From: a virus
IMG/VR virus record: IMGVR_UViG_3300017727_000096
Coordinates: 1-29,937 of that record
Strand: one strand, 5' to 3'
DNA length: 29,937 nt
Part shown: positions 10,673-28,784 of the stretch, one piece after another
Position numbering within the stretch: the first letter of the stretch is position 1
Layout: each line of letters begins with the position of its first letter
Notes under the pieces: model-generated
Told to the model about the DNA's origin: nothing
Seen by the model: the letters and a program-made list of their open reading frames with translations, nothing else
Database searches by the model: none
Translations under genes and position numbers: made by a program

Positions 10673-10705
10673 TATTTATCTGATACCATTAAAACTAGTT
10701 TTAAT
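10673..10705 (-). promoter_or_regulatory. Composite late promoter upstream of gp25
   Basis: Read on the minus strand: the perfect 18-bp palindrome ATTAAAACTAGTTTTAAT (10705-10688), a 7-nt spacer, and the box GATAAATA (10680-10673). By analogy with the T4 late box TATAAATA (-13 to -6), position +1 would be 10667, the A of the gp25 ATG. The same arrangement occurs at 28752-28784 with an identical 18 nt from the box through the start codon. Confidence 0.75.
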
Positions 10706-10801: not shown

Positions 10802-11083
10802 ATGAAAAACGTATTAGAACGTTTCGACAAAGTTGTTGATTTAGCATTTAAAGTCAACAAAAAAATTTACGACAATAATTATGAGGAATCGAGTGGGTAT
10901 GGACCTAGGTTCCGCAAAATGTTGCACAAAAACGGCAACAGAATTCATTCACTAGGCATATTTGATTACCATACAAAAAAATATGTATTATTTGAGATGG
11001 TTAATATGGTAGGGCAAAAAAATAAAGTGCCAGCAGAATTTAATCTCATGGAGCAGTTAATACGGGATGGCGAACCAAACTAA
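10802..11083 (+). CDS. Hypothetical protein, first gene of hydrolase island
   Basis: I do not recognise this 93-aa protein. It begins MKNVLERFDKVVDLAFKVNK and is rich in Lys, Asn and aromatic residues, with a central segment (residues ~45-75: HSLGIFDYHTKKYVLFEMVN) that looks like a small mixed alpha/beta fold. No signal peptide or membrane segment is visible. The start is supported by AAGGA 8 nt upstream of the ATG. Its last 17 bases overlap the start of the next gene in another frame, so the two are probably translationally coupled. It is plus-strand while both flanking tail operons are minus-strand, which marks this as an inserted or separately controlled unit. Confidence 0.8.
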   Translation: MKNVLERFDKVVDLAFKVNKKIYDNNYEESSGYGPRFRKMLHKNGNRIHSLGIFDYHTKKYVLFEMVNMVGQKNKVPAEFNLMEQLIRDGEPN

Positions 11084-11696
11084 TGTTGTTTTCATCCATG
11101 GTAGTGGACAAAGTAAATTAAGTTTTAATTTTTTAGAAATTTTTTTACCGGAACATAATCTTTTAAATTTAGAATATAATGTTCAAGAAGATCCAGAAGT
11201 CATAGTTAAACGATTCAAATTTTTAATTGACCAACATCTTGGAGACAATCCGTTTTCCATTATTGCACATAGTTATGGCTGTGTTTTATCTGCAAGACTA
11301 TTAGACTTGTATAAAAATATTGACCACTTGTTTGCATTGAGTTCACCGTGGGGTGGTAGTAGAACAGCAAAGTGGTTAGCAATGGTATTTAGAACTAGCA
11401 ATCTTTTTGCAACAATGAATCCAGGAAGTGAGTTTTTGACATCCATTGCTAATGGTAAAAGCGAAATTCCGATAACTAATATAGTAACAGCAGGAACAGG
11501 CAGTGGTAATGCACTTGCAGGATTAGGTTCAGCACCCAACGATGGACTGCTTACAATAGAGACACAAAAGAAGGTTCCTGTAGGTTTTGTAAATACAAAA
11601 AATATAACGGTTGACTTATCCCACAATGAAGTGTTATTATCTATGGAAATAGTCGAGATTATAAAGGAAAGAGTTTTTAATGAAAACCAAAACTAA
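11067..11696 (+). CDS. Lipase-like alpha/beta hydrolase
   Basis: At 209 aa it is a compact alpha/beta hydrolase. An oxyanion-hole loop HGSG lies at residues 11-14 after a hydrophobic first strand (VVFI). The nucleophile elbow is AHSYG at 67-71, so Ser69 is the predicted nucleophile. A lipase-like segment SSPWGGS lies at 92-98 and a MNPGSEFL segment at 118-124. The likely catalytic Asp is D159 in APNDG, and the likely His is H186 in SHNEVL. All three triad residues are therefore present in the right order, resembling triacylglycerol-lipase/PGAP1-type esterases. There is no signal peptide, so it acts in the cytoplasm or travels with virions or lysis. It overlaps both neighbours by 17 bp. The substrate is unknown; a role in membrane breakdown at lysis is only a guess. 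Confidence 0.85.
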   Translation: MANQTNVVFIHGSGQSKLSFNFLEIFLPEHNLLNLEYNVQEDPEVIVKRFKFLIDQHLGDNPFSIIAHSYGCVLSARLLDLYKNIDHLFALSSPWGGSRTAKWLAMVFRTSNLFATMNPGSEFLTSIANGKSEIPITNIVTAGTGSGNALAGLGSAPNDGLLTIETQKKVPVGFVNTKNITVDLSHNEVLLSMEIVEIIKERVFNENQN

Positions 11697-23474: not shown

Positions 23475-23532
23475 CTATCTATTGAGTAACACAATAGACA
23501 CCAAGTCAAACTAACATAGGCAAACATAAGGC

Positions 23533-23607
23533 ATCACACCGCCCAACCGAGGCTGATGAAATCGGTATCCTTGAGGTTCCATACGGCGCCAGATTCTGGA
23601 TTGTGAT
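23533..23607 (+). ncRNA. Candidate structured RNA (multi-helix fold)
   Basis: An outer helix ATCACA (23533-23538) with TGTGAT (23602-23607) encloses two elements. The first is CGCC (23540-23543) with GGCG (23585-23588), which itself encloses CCGA/TCGG (23547-23550 with 23562-23565) and a TAT/ATA stem over CCTTGAGG. The second is the hairpin CCAG-ATT-CTGG (23589-23599), which abuts the GGCG strand. Nested helices plus locally high GC in AT-rich DNA suggest a functional RNA; no known class is matched with confidence. The strand is assumed from the flanking transcription. Confidence 0.35.
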
Positions 23608-23810
23608 AGGCAAGATACAAACAACTTTATGGTATTAAAAGAATTTAGGCTCTGAGAAAAAGCAACCTATAAGTCTAGTATAATGAATTCCTCCAGTTAT
23701 ACAGACTCCCGTGAGATTCGAGACGGTAGTGTAAAGGGGCAAAAAGCTCACTGGCTCCTAATAGCACCCGAGATGGAAATGATGAAGCATCACATGATGG
23801 CAAATCATTG

Positions 23811-23830
23811 TTCTCCTTGCATAAGGAGAA
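23811..23830 (+). promoter_or_regulatory. Perfect hairpin hiding a Shine-Dalgarno sequence
   Basis: TTCTCCTT and AAGGAGAA pair over 8 bp with loop GCAT. The right arm carries AAGGAG, 4 nt before an ATG (23833) that opens a 9-codon reading frame ending TAA at 23862. No T-run follows, so it is not a typical terminator. The geometry resembles an SD-sequestering switch or a leader-peptide control element. Confidence 0.4.
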
Positions 23831-23881
23831 TTATGACTTCAACATACATGATAGCAGTTTAAAAAATGTTTTCAACAAGTA

Positions 23882-23904
23882 ATGAAATGAATGAAATGAA
23901 TGAA
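23882..23904 (+). repeat. Short direct repeat, unit ATGAAATGA
   Basis: The 9-base unit ATGAAATGA occurs twice in tandem, followed by a partial third copy. It lies inside a 16-codon frame (23866-23916) that would read as alternating Asn-Glu-Met triplets. Its role is unknown. Confidence 0.55.
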
Positions 23905-24027
23905 TTCCGCAGTTGAAAAAGGTACGAAGTACCTAATAAATGTATTATAATATAACACTATTCTTAAAACCCTTATAAAACAAGCATCTAAAACATAAAA
24001 TAATTACCATTTTTCTTGGTAAAAAAC

Positions 24028-24055
24028 TTGACATTGACTCCAAAAGACGTATAAT
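24028..24055 (+). promoter_or_regulatory. Sigma70-type promoter for the accessory operon
   Basis: A perfect TTGACA (24028-24033), a 16-nt spacer and a perfect TATAAT (24050-24055). It lies 37 nt before the 24093 start codon, which is preceded by AGGAG. Spacer length and distance to the start are nearly the same as for the gp55 promoter. This should be read by host RNA polymerase without phage factors. Confidence 0.88.
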
Positions 24056-24092: not shown

Positions 24093-24614
24093 ATGTTTAA
24101 AGTTTTTCAAATCAAGTTAGCAGATGAAGTTACTGACTATGTAAACAGTAATGAACGTGGTCATGCTGGCGGCGAAGAAAAATATCCCATATATGAAACA
24201 TATATGAGGCTTAATCACAGTCTACGTGATGAAAGTAAGTTTAATGATACTGATTTCCAACATTTCACTAATGTGTGTAATGTTAGTCGCGACGCAGGAC
24301 TAGTTGATGGTGACGGTCAAAGTTGGCAGGTACGTGATTTAGAGGATGTTTTCGCAGTACTAAATGGTCGTTACTTCGACGAAGATACTGGCAAGGACAT
24401 TGTACACGAAACACATGTTAGTGGATACAAAATGAAAACTATCACTCGTAAGGACGGCGAAGTTGTTACTTACAGAGATATGCGTAGTTTAAGTGTTGGT
24501 GACTTAGTAGAAGATACTCATAACGGTACATTCCATATTGTCGCTAGTTTTGGTTTTTTAGATGTTACTAACAAAGTAAAAAACTATGTTGAGCAATCAA
24601 TGGAGGTGGCGTAA
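24093..24614 (+). CDS. Hypothetical protein, first gene of accessory operon
   Basis: I do not recognise this 173-aa acidic soluble protein. It begins MFKVFQIKLADEVTDYVNSN. The central part (YMRLNHSLRDESKFNDTDFQ, then QVRDLEDVFAVLNGRYFDED) looks helical, and the C-terminal third (SGYKMKTITRKDGEVVTYRD, then SLSVGDLVED) looks like a small beta-barrel. There is no signal peptide. AGGAG lies about 8 nt upstream, and a near-perfect sigma70 promoter drives it. It is followed one base later by the next start codon. Being under a host-type promoter suggests early expression and possibly a host-takeover function, which is inference only. Confidence 0.85.
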   Translation: MFKVFQIKLADEVTDYVNSNERGHAGGEEKYPIYETYMRLNHSLRDESKFNDTDFQHFTNVCNVSRDAGLVDGDGQSWQVRDLEDVFAVLNGRYFDEDTGKDIVHETHVSGYKMKTITRKDGEVVTYRDMRSLSVGDLVEDTHNGTFHIVASFGFLDVTNKVKNYVEQSMEVA

Positions 24615-24615
24615 T

Positions 24616-24864
24616 ATGTGTGGTGGTTACACTGGCGAGTATGACGCAGGTATAGAAGATAACTTTAACAAGCACGGCGGACCTTATGATAGGGGTAGTG
24701 CAGACAGTTATTACGGCAGACCTAAAGATCCTCATTACTATCCAAATGGAACATATAATGATCCTAGGATAGTTGAGTTTGATATGACACAAGATGAAAT
24801 TGATGCATATCACAAAGGCTTTGATGAAAATGAGGCTGATGGTAATTTTAAGGATTATGCATAA
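24616..24864 (+). CDS. Small hypothetical protein with RGSADSYYGR motif
   Basis: This 82-aa protein starts at 24616, where GGAGGT (24602-24607) is ideally placed; an in-frame ATG 30 bases upstream has no such site and lies inside the previous gene. The sequence carries GPYDRGSADSYYGRPKDPHY and ends DEIDAYHKGFDENEADGNFK. From memory, small proteins with an RG-x-AD-x-YYGR segment followed by an acidic 'Y..G...N...G..KDY' end recur in phages and bacteria, but I know no assigned function. No signal peptide or membrane segment is present. The TAA overlaps the next ATG by one base. Confidence 0.82.
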   Translation: MCGGYTGEYDAGIEDNFNKHGGPYDRGSADSYYGRPKDPHYYPNGTYNDPRIVEFDMTQDEIDAYHKGFDENEADGNFKDYA

Positions 24865-25193
24865 TGATTGAGATACTTCAAGAAATCACTGACTGGGGAA
24901 AGTACAAGGTAAACAATGGAATTTATCATGTAAACTCTGCGGGCAAACTTGTTGCATACCAACCTAGTTCAGAAGAGCCTGTACAAAAGTTAAATGTACC
25001 AAGTACGCAATTCAGCAAATCAAGACGTAAGTTTAAAAAAATTGGAGCATACCCAGAACCTAAAAAAGAAAATGTTATTGAAGTAAAAGGTTCGACTGGT
25101 AAGATATATTATATAGATACAGACAAACGCACTTGCACTTGTCCTGGCTTCACATATAGAGGAAATTGCAAACATGTTAAAGAGTACTGCTAA
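24864..25193 (+). CDS. SWIM zinc-finger protein
   Basis: This 109-aa protein ends in a SWIM-type zinc finger: Cys91-x-Cys93 followed by Cys102-x-His104 (CTCPGFTYRGNCKHV), preceded by the usual beta-hairpin GKIYYIDTDKR. SWIM domains bind DNA or proteins. The first 75 residues are basic with a KSRRKFKKIG patch (~52-61), suggesting nucleic-acid binding. The ATG overlaps the previous stop, with AAGGA upstream. Its 3' end overlaps the start of the lipoprotein gene by 20 bases. The partner and target are unknown. Confidence 0.85.
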   Translation: MIEILQEITDWGKYKVNNGIYHVNSAGKLVAYQPSSEEPVQKLNVPSTQFSKSRRKFKKIGAYPEPKKENVIEVKGSTGKIYYIDTDKRTCTCPGFTYRGNCKHVKEYC

Positions 25194-27573
25194 AAGATAT
25201 TTTTACAAAATACTAGACCTACTTATTGTAGGTCTAGTTATATTCGCATTGTCGTCATGTGCTAGTGGCGGTGGTAGTGCTGGGTTAGAACAACCTACAC
25301 AATTATCATACACACCACCTACTCAAAGTAGTCACTCTAATGACAAACGTCATAGTTTTGAAACATTTACTTCTGAGTATAGTCCAACTGCAACAGGATT
25401 TGCAGACCCTATTAATGTTACATATAGTATATTGGATTATACTGTAACAGGATTGCCTACACCAACTGACAAATACTATATTGAAGATTATGGTTTTTTA
25501 AATGTGCAAGTTGAAGGCACACATCCTGGTTTTGCTAATGGACAAGAAACTGCAGACCCTGGCCCTTACAATCAATTTACTAGAGTTTTAGAAGCAGACT
25601 TAAATGGCGATGAACATATGGACATGTATGTTATATCTTATATTGGCGACTGGAACACTAGAAGTTTTAATCCTGACAGTAAAATTTTTACTTTCTTAAA
25701 TGATGGCACAGGACACTTTATATTACAAGATGATTCATTTTGCATTATGGGTACAAATTGTAGTCGGAATACTTCTGTGACTAATGCATTAACAGTTGAC
25801 TTAAATGGTGATGGCATAGATGACTTTTTCGGTGGTCAAACATTACTGTTGAGCAACAACGGAAAGTTAGAAGATAAAAGTTCTACACTTCCTGCTAATG
25901 TATTCTTTAATGACGAAGTAGGCGGAAGTATGGGTCCATTTGCACATGATGTTGCAAACGGTGATGCTGATAATGACGGTGACCAAGATATTTTCTTTCC
26001 TCTATTTGCTAGAAACTCAGGTACAGATTGGGGCAATGGTCATACTACAAATAATGTTGAACCATGGGTTATGTTAATTAATGATGGCACTGGTAATTTT
26101 AGTGAAAATAGAAACTTTCCAATTTATAACAACGAAAACTCTACATGGGCAACCACAGCCACAGTTGCAGACTTTGACGGAGATGGCTTTGGAGATGTTG
26201 CAGTTGGATGGCAATATGCCGGTAAGGCACAAAACAATATAGCAAGTAGTCCTACAAATAGTGCTGGTGCAGTATTTTATAACAATGGTAGTAATGATTG
26301 GCGAGATGATGTAGTACCTTTGCCAGCAAACTATTATGGTGCTATAGGTGGTGCCATAGATATGGATGCGTTTGATATTGATGGTGACGGCAATATAGAT
26401 ATTATAATGGGTGTTACACCAACAAGCGATGATTCGAATTATTATGTTGGAAACATGATACAAATCTTTAAAAACAATGGTAATAAAACTTGGAGTGATA
26501 TTACTTCAACTGCAAACCCTAATACAAAATATGCAGACGGTAATCCTGCAGACGCAAGTACATGGAATGGTCAAATGTTTATTACTAAAGTTGACTTTGA
26601 TAAAGACGGAGACTTGGATATTGTTTCATCAGGTGTAAACAGTTATGTGCTAATAAACAACAATGGTGTATTTGACCTTTATGATAATTTCCCAGGTTTT
26701 GATAGTGGACATTTAACTGGATTATTTCCTATAGAAATAGATGGCAAGGATTGGTATGATTTTGTAGGCTCAACTGTAACACAAGAAACACACTCCAGTC
26801 ATAATACTTTTTGGTTAATGATGGACCCAGTTGATGTGTTAGGTCAAATGGCTGATGAAATAGCACATAAGCCTATGCAGTATGCACAAACAGTTTTTGA
26901 AAACAAAAGTATTTTTAATACATTAAAGAACCAAACGTTATTTGATGACAACGTCTTTTACACAGATAATAACTTTGATAGTGTTTTGGGTTATAATAAA
27001 AACTTTGGCAATTATGGACTACTTTTTGGTAAAACAGAAGGCGGTGGAGTTGTATTTGTTGACACACAAATTAATAACTATCACATTGGTTTAGGTTTTA
27101 TGAAAAGTGATATGTATGTTGATAATCCAGGCAAATATTATGGCACAGGTAATGCTAAACTAGATGTAGACACAATTAATTTGTTTGCAGAAAGGTCATT
27201 TGCAATACACGATAACTGGTTTTTACAGTCAGGGTTTGCTTTTTATAGCACTACTGTAGACAGTTTTAAAGAGCAAAATAGTAACTTTAATGCAGAAGTA
27301 AGTAAGTTTACATTAAACGATATTGAGTCATATACAGACTTTACAGGTAAATTTAACACCTCTAGAGGTACCACTTATGTTTCTTTAGGAGTTAGTACAA
27401 TCCATAGTTTAAGCAATAGTTCTATACATTTTAATGGTCTTAAAACTGAGTTTAGCAATAACGAAACTGTGGTAAGAGCAAGTCTAAGTCATGTTTATAA
27501 TAACATTACTGCTTATATAAAAGCAGATACTATAGACGATAATTTGAAATTTGGAATAAGTTTTAGATTATAA
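25174..27573 (+). CDS. Lipoprotein with FG-GAP/VCBS repeats and C-terminal beta-barrel
   Basis: This 799-aa exported protein has a basic start (KSTAKRYFYK), a hydrophobic segment and a lipobox LSSC with Cys29, so signal peptidase II processing is predicted. Ala at +2 favours outer-membrane sorting. Between residues ~140 and ~485 there are six FG-GAP/VCBS calcium-loop motifs: DLNGDEHMD, DLNGDGIDD, GDADNDGDQD, DFDGDGFGD, DIDGDGNID and DKDGDLD. From ~600 to the end the sequence alternates polar and hydrophobic residues with repeated aromatic strand ends and finishes KFGISFRL, like an outer-membrane barrel. The start is supported by AGAGGAA upstream. Such a surface protein is unusual in a phage. 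It could alter the infected cell's surface or block superinfection; a bacterial origin is plausible. Confidence 0.85.
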   Translation: MLKSTAKRYFYKILDLLIVGLVIFALSSCASGGGSAGLEQPTQLSYTPPTQSSHSNDKRHSFETFTSEYSPTATGFADPINVTYSILDYTVTGLPTPTDKYYIEDYGFLNVQVEGTHPGFANGQETADPGPYNQFTRVLEADLNGDEHMDMYVISYIGDWNTRSFNPDSKIFTFLNDGTGHFILQDDSFCIMGTNCSRNTSVTNALTVDLNGDGIDDFFGGQTLLLSNNGKLEDKSSTLPANVFFNDEVGGSMGPFAHDVANGDADNDGDQDIFFPLFARNSGTDWGNGHTTNNVEPWVMLINDGTGNFSENRNFPIYNNENSTWATTATVADFDGDGFGDVAVGWQYAGKAQNNIASSPTNSAGAVFYNNGSNDWRDDVVPLPANYYGAIGGAIDMDAFDIDGDGNIDIIMGVTPTSDDSNYYVGNMIQIFKNNGNKTWSDITSTANPNTKYADGNPADASTWNGQMFITKVDFDKDGDLDIVSSGVNSYVLINNNGVFDLYDNFPGFDSGHLTGLFPIEIDGKDWYDFVGSTVTQETHSSHNTFWLMMDPVDVLGQMADEIAHKPMQYAQTVFENKSIFNTLKNQTLFDDNVFYTDNNFDSVLGYNKNFGNYGLLFGKTEGGGVVFVDTQINNYHIGLGFMKSDMYVDNPGKYYGTGNAKLDVDTINLFAERSFAIHDNWFLQSGFAFYSTTVDSFKEQNSNFNAEVSKFTLNDIESYTDFTGKFNTSRGTTYVSLGVSTIHSLSNSSIHFNGLKTEFSNNETVVRASLSHVYNNITAYIKADTIDDNLKFGISFRL
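25212..25238 (+). repeat. Perfect 11-bp inverted repeat in the signal-peptide coding region
   Basis: ACTAGACCTAC and GTAGGTCTAGT pair perfectly around the loop TTATT and are followed by TTATATT. It lies just after the SWIM stop codon and within the codons for the hydrophobic signal segment of the lipoprotein. It could act as an attenuator or terminator that lowers lipoprotein expression, or as an operator. Confidence 0.6.
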
Positions 27574-28701: not shown

Positions 28702-28734
28702 TATTTATTTATCTTAATTAAAACTAGTTATAAT
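28702..28734 (-). promoter_or_regulatory. Composite late promoter for the gp26-like gene
   Basis: On the minus strand: ATTATAACTAGTTTTAAT (28734-28717), a 7-nt spacer and AATAAATA (28709-28702). The upstream element differs from the perfect 18-bp palindrome at one position. An overlapping GATAAATA (28713-28706) is offset by 4 nt and would break the constant spacing. Predicted +1 is near 28696, giving a ~29-nt leader with GGAG. Confidence 0.7.
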
Positions 28735-28751
28735 AAATCCTGTAAAACTTC

Positions 28752-28784
28752 ATTAAAACTAGTTTTTATAGAATATGATAAATA
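28752..28784 (+). promoter_or_regulatory. Composite late promoter for the tape-measure-like gene
   Basis: ATTAAAACTAGTTTTTAT (28752-28769; one mismatch to the perfect palindrome), a 7-nt spacer and GATAAATA (28777-28784), then TTGGT and the ATG at 28790. The box-to-start segment GATAAATATTGGTATGGC is identical to that at gp25. The predicted +1 is the A of the start codon. Confidence 0.75.

Follow-up and report, generated by a model that had tools for sequence, protein, structure and literature searches.

A virus record of 29,937 bases (IMG/VR record IMGVR_UViG_3300017727_000096, analyzed in full and called the window here) contains an operon whose last gene encodes a lipoprotein of 799 amino acids. 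Because an AlphaFold2 (AF2) model of this protein shows a propeller, a helix, and a barrel like those of EspP and NalP, we are highly confident in a predicted autotransporter-like architecture, lipidated and with a propeller as passenger. The phage location of the gene, its lipoprotein signal, the propeller, the barrel, and a conserved host-type promoter point to display on the infected cell's surface as the best reading, and such display is likely on the strength of the model. The explanation that we favor as a whole, in which the protein is displayed early on the infected cell and probably blocks further phage adsorption, has about an even chance of being correct. A gene carried by nearly every member of a clade of marine jumbo phages thus seems to specify an entire surface protein that exports itself, is anchored by lipid, and bears an integrin-like head. 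The only close cellular relatives found belong to SAR86, an abundant ocean lineage, which offers a testable host link. The gene, probably traded between phage and host, also gives a way to ask whether lytic phages rebuild the exterior of the cells that they infect to keep competitors out.

An initial annotation of this DNA had noted a lipobox at Cys29, and our analysis agrees: LSSC is followed by ASGGGS with no Asp at position +2, as expected of an outer-membrane lipoprotein. Cys29 was invariant in one alignment (A4) and at least 90% conserved in another (A6), making the lipobox nearly invariant across the phage members. The assignment of the repeats to the FG-GAP kind also held, with Pfam matches to FG-GAP_3 (E=1.2e-18) and FG-GAP (1.4e-6), a sequence-profile match to integrin alpha-V (2.7e-9), and a propeller of integrin type in the AF2 model. 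All six annotated DxDxDG-type loops were located, starting at residues 142, 209, 264, 333, 401, and 474, but only five follow the strict pattern D-x-[DN]-x-[DN]-G-x-x-D, the first being the variant DLNGDEHMD; residue shuffling gave an expectation of 0.026 strict loops and a maximum of 1 in 2000 shuffles. By structural comparison, the propeller resembled those of the BBSome, LGI1, and DDB1 (Z 20-22), and its matches to seven-bladed propellers suggest that it has seven blades.

The AF2 model was built from a 42-sequence alignment and reached a mean predicted local distance difference test (pLDDT) score of 83.6 and a predicted template modeling (pTM) score of 0.65; a run with three near-identical homologues gave a pLDDT of 26.7, and that model was not used. 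The model begins with a signal helix (residues 3-26) and a disordered tether and continues with a propeller to residue 552, a helix at residues 555-590, and about 12 strands to residue 797, in line with the C-terminal outer-membrane-type barrel of the initial annotation; the barrel-free prediction that this annotation had named as a refuting result did not arise. In VIA structural comparisons that included the helix, the EspP translocator superposed on residues 555-799 (Z 20.9, root mean square deviation [rmsd] 3.4, 244 residues) and the NalP translocator on residues 562-799 (Z 20.2, rmsd 3.0, 227 residues), and Foldseek returned matches to EspP, BrkA, EstA, AaaA, and NalP. The predicted structure therefore has the helix followed by a 12-strand barrel that characterizes type Va autotransporters, and the export signal, passenger, and C-terminal translocator all lie in one chain. 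The model makes a type-V mode of export likely, and the protein appears to carry, in its own barrel, the means of reaching the outside of the infected cell. The C-terminal residue was Phe or Trp, as in the outer-membrane beta-signal, in 22 of 34 distinct phage C termini, but it is Leu in the window copy.

Gene content and order in the window run from a gp25-type wedge gene through lysozyme/hub, late sigma factor, gp47, gp46, SegE, and baseplate hub genes to a large tape-like open reading frame (ORF). The same order occurs in the Pseudomonas jumbo phage PA5oct (NC_071039, 286,783 bases), with a shared core of gp25, lysozyme-hub, late sigma, gp47, gp46, and hub genes. Because of this match, the window is, on gene content and order, a piece of the genome of a large T4-related, PA5oct-like jumbo phage. 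The genes flanking the lipoprotein ORF are phage genes, as initially described, and include the T4-type late sigma factor, gp47/gp46, SegE, the baseplate hub, and the tape-like ORF. The gp46 protein is 54% identical to its PA5oct counterpart, and every phage record found was below 60% identity in gp46, so that there is no close cultured relative; the longest related contig spans 339,794 bases.

The initial annotation called phage genes of this design uncommon; the present one is no isolated case, being found throughout a jumbo-phage clade and in SAR86-order chromosomes. Scanning by alignment of the neighboring hub gene gave 80 loci (single-protein scans with the hub or the barrel reached only the nearest contigs). 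The lipoprotein gene was at the same place, with protein identities of roughly 37-89%, in each of the 31 contigs whose hub was at least 61% identical; it was not seen there in any of the 49 loci with a less similar hub, several of which are short. Further members occupy a second genomic position, nearly always with a gene for a SWIM zinc-finger protein in front, and 38 distinct phage sequences entered our tree. Searching 50,697 public phage records with the protein by tblastn gave no match. Close copies were 77-89% identical with ratios of nonsynonymous to synonymous substitution rates (dN/dS) of 0.10-0.17, and dozens of more distant full-length homologues were present; the gene is conserved under purifying selection.

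The strong host-type promoter proposed for the operon matches the sigma-70 consensus at all 12 positions and is conserved. Across 37 phage loci with enough upstream DNA, of which 1.3 kb was scanned, a promoter scoring 11-12/12 was present on the coding strand in 35 (1.06 expected from dinucleotide shuffles), and no such promoter occurred on the opposite strand of the same regions. Within the window, a palindromic motif, AAAACTAGTTTT, marks the gp25, hub, and tape-like genes, and this motif at structural genes is probably the late-promoter element of the phage clade. With near-copies counted, 49 of 61 loci have the probable late motif ahead of the hub gene, against 6 of 61 that have it ahead of the lipoprotein gene. 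It is absent upstream of the lipoprotein operon in the window, and no T4-type late promoter (TATAAATA) occurs within the window. Since the sigma-70-type promoter is conserved and the late motif is mostly absent, these patterns suggest that the lipoprotein operon belongs to a transcription class other than that of the structural genes. At structural genes of the window, the palindromic motif (AAAACTAGTTTTAAT) occupies positions 10693-10700 and 28727-28764.

Among 84,980 species genomes, the full-length homologues found came from bacteria of the SAR86 cluster and from two marine bins that are poorly named. The full protein was present in 10 of 203 SAR86-order genomes, and at E 1e-40 it was found in none of 368 other Gammaproteobacteria and none of 397 other genomes sampled from the phylum. 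Neighbors of the SAR86 homologues are chromosomal genes (guaA, dnaG, and rpoD). A different FG-GAP protein of about 600 amino acids, which lacks the barrel and often has a lipobox, occurs in about 52 of the 203 SAR86-order genomes (loci L233-L252); these proteins form a distant outgroup, and we did not count them as full-length homologues.

In our tree, which has deep phage-only branches, ten SAR86-type proteins form one clade (100/100), and an eleventh cellular protein, L144, pairs with the phage protein L008 inside the phage set (100/100), the two being 75% identical over the whole protein. L144 sits among surface-polysaccharide genes (glycosyltransferase and sugar-nucleotide genes), and because this site is unlike the dnaG-rpoD site of four others, a recent gain of L144 by its host fits. 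The phylogeny makes gene exchange between phages and SAR86-type bacteria likely. It calls either for two or more exchanges or for a single recent exchange on top of very ancient common ancestry, in whichever direction the gene moved. In addition, one SAR86-order genome includes a 108-kb contig bearing genes of a related jumbo phage (hub, SegE, and tape-like; L256, G186 contig 3, 76000-95000; L255) but no lipoprotein gene at that place. Given the SAR86 homologues, the L144-L008 exchange, and this contig, SAR86 or a close relative is the likely host, and we consider a SAR86-type marine gammaproteobacterium to be the probable one. According to a 2017 survey, no isolated SAR86 virus was known (PMC5332604). 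The closest cellular relatives come from SAR86, the probable hosts, so the phage seems to be coating its host in a variant of a protein that the host itself owns. The retention of the gene by free-living SAR86 points to a molecular function that is useful outside phage infection too, for example, as an adhesin or in protection against phages.

In the mechanism that we propose, host RNA polymerase would read this operon of a jumbo myophage from its near-perfect sigma-70 promoter soon after infection, Sec would export the protein, and lipidation would occur at Cys29. The barrel assembly (BAM) machinery would then insert the C-terminal barrel of about 12 strands, and the calcium-loaded propeller would be passed outward and held at the cell surface by the helix, barrel, and lipid, where it would alter the surface of the infected cell. 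As the most likely benefit, it may mask or imitate a receptor and so keep related phages from adsorbing to the taken cell or its debris. By analogy with known phage lipoproteins, such an adsorption block or receptor masking is the leading candidate for the main role, although its chances fall somewhat short of even. The initial annotation had placed the protein on the infected or lysogenised cell; the first of these stands as the best reading on account of the lipobox, barrel, and promoter, but nothing points to lysogeny, and the synteny is PA5oct-like.

Several observations weigh against this interpretation. No member of alignment A6 matches the Pfam Autotransporter family (PF03797) at E 0.1, and because of this absence we claim a fold and a likely mechanism, not family membership. 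The C terminus FGISFRL noted in the initial annotation is present in the window copy but is not typical, ending in Leu rather than Phe, and the three copies nearest to the window all end in Leu. Five distinct relatives (L017/L018, L125, L128, L129, and L132) end after the propeller, at 548-598 amino acids, without the helix and barrel, and no separate barrel protein was found in the records of the barrel-less phages, the L132 record giving only a 35-residue match (E=0.005). The barrel is therefore dispensable in some lineages, and the propeller with its lipid anchor forms the constant core. Furthermore, a host-type promoter is no proof of early expression, and the SAR86-order genome with related phage genes could be mis-binned rather than infected.

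The best-surviving alternative shares the route of export and differs in the ligand: as an adhesin, the integrin-like propeller would stick infected cells to particles, polysaccharide, or neighbors, bringing new hosts near or holding the infected cell where nutrients are plentiful. Adhesion is a known role of FG-GAP propellers, the integrin alpha-V profile match fits, and the free-living SAR86 that keep homologues would have no use for a superinfection block that serves a phage. Yet no ligand-binding motif was identified in the protein, and the SAR86 lineage is generally described as planktonic and streamlined, leaving an adhesin possible but unlikely. We are more doubtful of a role in auxiliary nutrient or metal capture, in which the phage version would sustain host uptake during a long infection. 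Jumbo phages often carry auxiliary genes of this kind, and full-length host homologues and phage-host transfer would suit it, but so few SAR86-order genomes carry the gene, and no uptake gene consistently adjoins it in hosts or phages. A virion part, such as a receptor-binding or baseplate decoration protein lying next to the hub by chance, could be read from the position of the gene between gp46-type and baseplate-hub genes and from a low-ranked Foldseek match to 5efv, a phage host-recognition device; the conserved lipobox, the outer-membrane-type barrel, the homologues in bacterial chromosomes, the second genomic position away from structural genes, and the host-type promoter without a late motif make a virion role very improbable. 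Finally, the homologues in hosts and the one or more recent transfers seen in the tree could fit a recently captured neutral passenger with no phage role, but this idea is largely refuted by conservation in every close contig, by the dN/dS values, and by the deep phage-only branches, and it is hardly credible.

Surface display on the infected cell, the reading that we prefer, also has precedents. The initial annotation considered a lipid anchor and a barrel in one chain odd, but the combination is not unique, as the autotransporters NalP of Neisseria and SphB1 of Bordetella have lipobox signals (PMC8151025). Like these type Va proteins, the phage protein combines a lipobox signal, an N-terminal passenger, a helix, and a C-terminal barrel of about 12 predicted strands; unlike them, it is encoded by a jumbo phage, carries an integrin-type propeller where theirs is a protease, and does not match PF03797. 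Type Vc autotransporters, which are trimeric, include the Eib proteins. In E. coli, Eib proteins are phage-encoded and bind immunoglobulins (PMC6024878). They resemble the present protein as phage-borne surface proteins made by the infected or lysogenic cell, but they are trimeric, have coiled coils, and come from temperate lambdoid prophages, whereas the jumbo-phage protein is lipidated and probably monomeric. Among phage lipoproteins, Llp of T5 blocks the receptor FhuA (PMC9586334), and Ltp, a surface lipoprotein of Streptococcus thermophilus phages, acts in superinfection exclusion (PMC3952083). Placement at the envelope and early expression, the latter predicted here from the promoter, would be shared with both, but Llp is small and periplasmic, Ltp is from a Gram-positive system, and neither has a propeller or a barrel.

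The SAR86 chromosomal homologues (L142-L144 and L226-L232) have the same full-length architecture at 32-75% identity and differ in their chromosomal context (dnaG-rpoD or surface-polysaccharide genes) and in having no SWIM partner. Database proteins of uncultured Caudovirales, such as A0A6J5L9S5 (VCBS-type repeat) and A0A6J5KUW0 ("Autotransporter beta-domain containing protein"), matched the fold of the AF2 model at 12-13% identity, the match to A0A6J5L9S5 spanning most of the model; our literature search found no paper on either or on any phage-encoded autotransporter. Surface proteins that phages encode are for the most part small morons carried by temperate phages. Lipidated autotransporters being already known, what is new is the predicted combination of lipidated propeller and barrel, its near-universal presence in a jumbo-phage clade, and its likely exchange with SAR86. 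A wider scenario, which we regard as quite unlikely, would give SAR86 jumbo phages a receptor-like surface protein that exports itself and passes between phages and hosts, the phage displaying a version of a host surface protein to control the next infections of the cell; some hosts would have recaptured phage versions (L144) as protection, and the SWIM and lipoprotein genes would form a mobile surface-warfare module whose barrel-less versions use another export route.

Table 1. Features of the lipoprotein operon and its surroundings (window positions)
Feature	Position	Strand	Basis
Predicted lipid-anchored, autotransporter-like beta-propeller protein, 799 amino acids, ATG start	25174..27573	+	ORF, lipobox, Pfam, AF2, structural comparison
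Lipoprotein signal peptide and lipobox LSSC, Cys29	25174..25260	+	Cys29 conservation
Predicted disordered Gly/Ser/Pro/Thr-rich tether, residues 30-63	25261..25362	+	Low pLDDT in AF2 model
Predicted integrin-type FG-GAP beta-propeller, six calcium-type loops, residues 64-552	25363..26829	+	AF2, fold matches, integrin alpha-V profile
Predicted long linker helix, 36 residues (555-590), equivalent of autotransporter pre-barrel helix	26836..26943	+	AF2; EspP alignment begins at 555
Predicted C-terminal barrel, about 12 strands, residues 591-799 (strands 593-797)	26944..27570	+	AF2, EspP/NalP superposition
Operon promoter, host sigma-70 type, TTGACA-16-TATAAT, 12/12 consensus	24028..24055	+	Consensus scoring
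Operon gene 1, 173 amino acids, no assigned function, in some relatives only	24093..24614	+	
Operon gene 2, 92 amino acids, no assigned function, overlaps gene 1	24586..24864	+	
Small SWIM zinc-finger protein, 109 amino acids	24864..25193	+	Pfam SWIM 1.7e-5, synteny
Two copies of AACTAGTTTTAAT, a probable late-gene motif, at the divergent genes for hub and tape-like protein	28727..28764	-	Motif search

The SWIM gene is the third of the operon, its 3' end overlapping the start codon of the lipoprotein gene, and the two genes adjoin each other at either genomic position in almost every phage relative; the SWIM protein is possibly a regulator or partner of the lipoprotein. We rejected a tail fiber as the neighbor at the second position, the large protein there having only a weak glycosyltransferase match with a Nol-like carbamoyltransferase gene next to it. 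Proteins of 1000-1350 amino acids were observed beside this position (L102:11712-14765, L115:14383-18276, and L126:11205-15281), with repeated FWVVD-type segments in the L102 and L126 copies, the weak glycosyltransferase match in L102, and the carbamoyltransferase gene adjoining in L102 and L126. PADLOC gave a single weak match (E=0.0021) that was not interpretable. Elsewhere in the window, a gene among the baseplate genes (11067-11696) had weak alpha/beta-hydrolase matches.

Only the closest relatives retain a hairpin that lies within the sequence coding for the signal peptide (25212-25238). Just upstream of the promoter, the window contains a conserved non-coding element of about 480 nucleotides (23475-24000, + strand; 526 bases), which had no match in Rfam even at E 1 and none in public phage records. 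The element is present in 35 distinct phage sequences, including phages without the lipoprotein gene, and RNAalifold with 27 jumbo-phage sequences gave 71 pairs, 39 of which showed compensatory double changes. By this covariation, the element probably represents a new structured RNA family.
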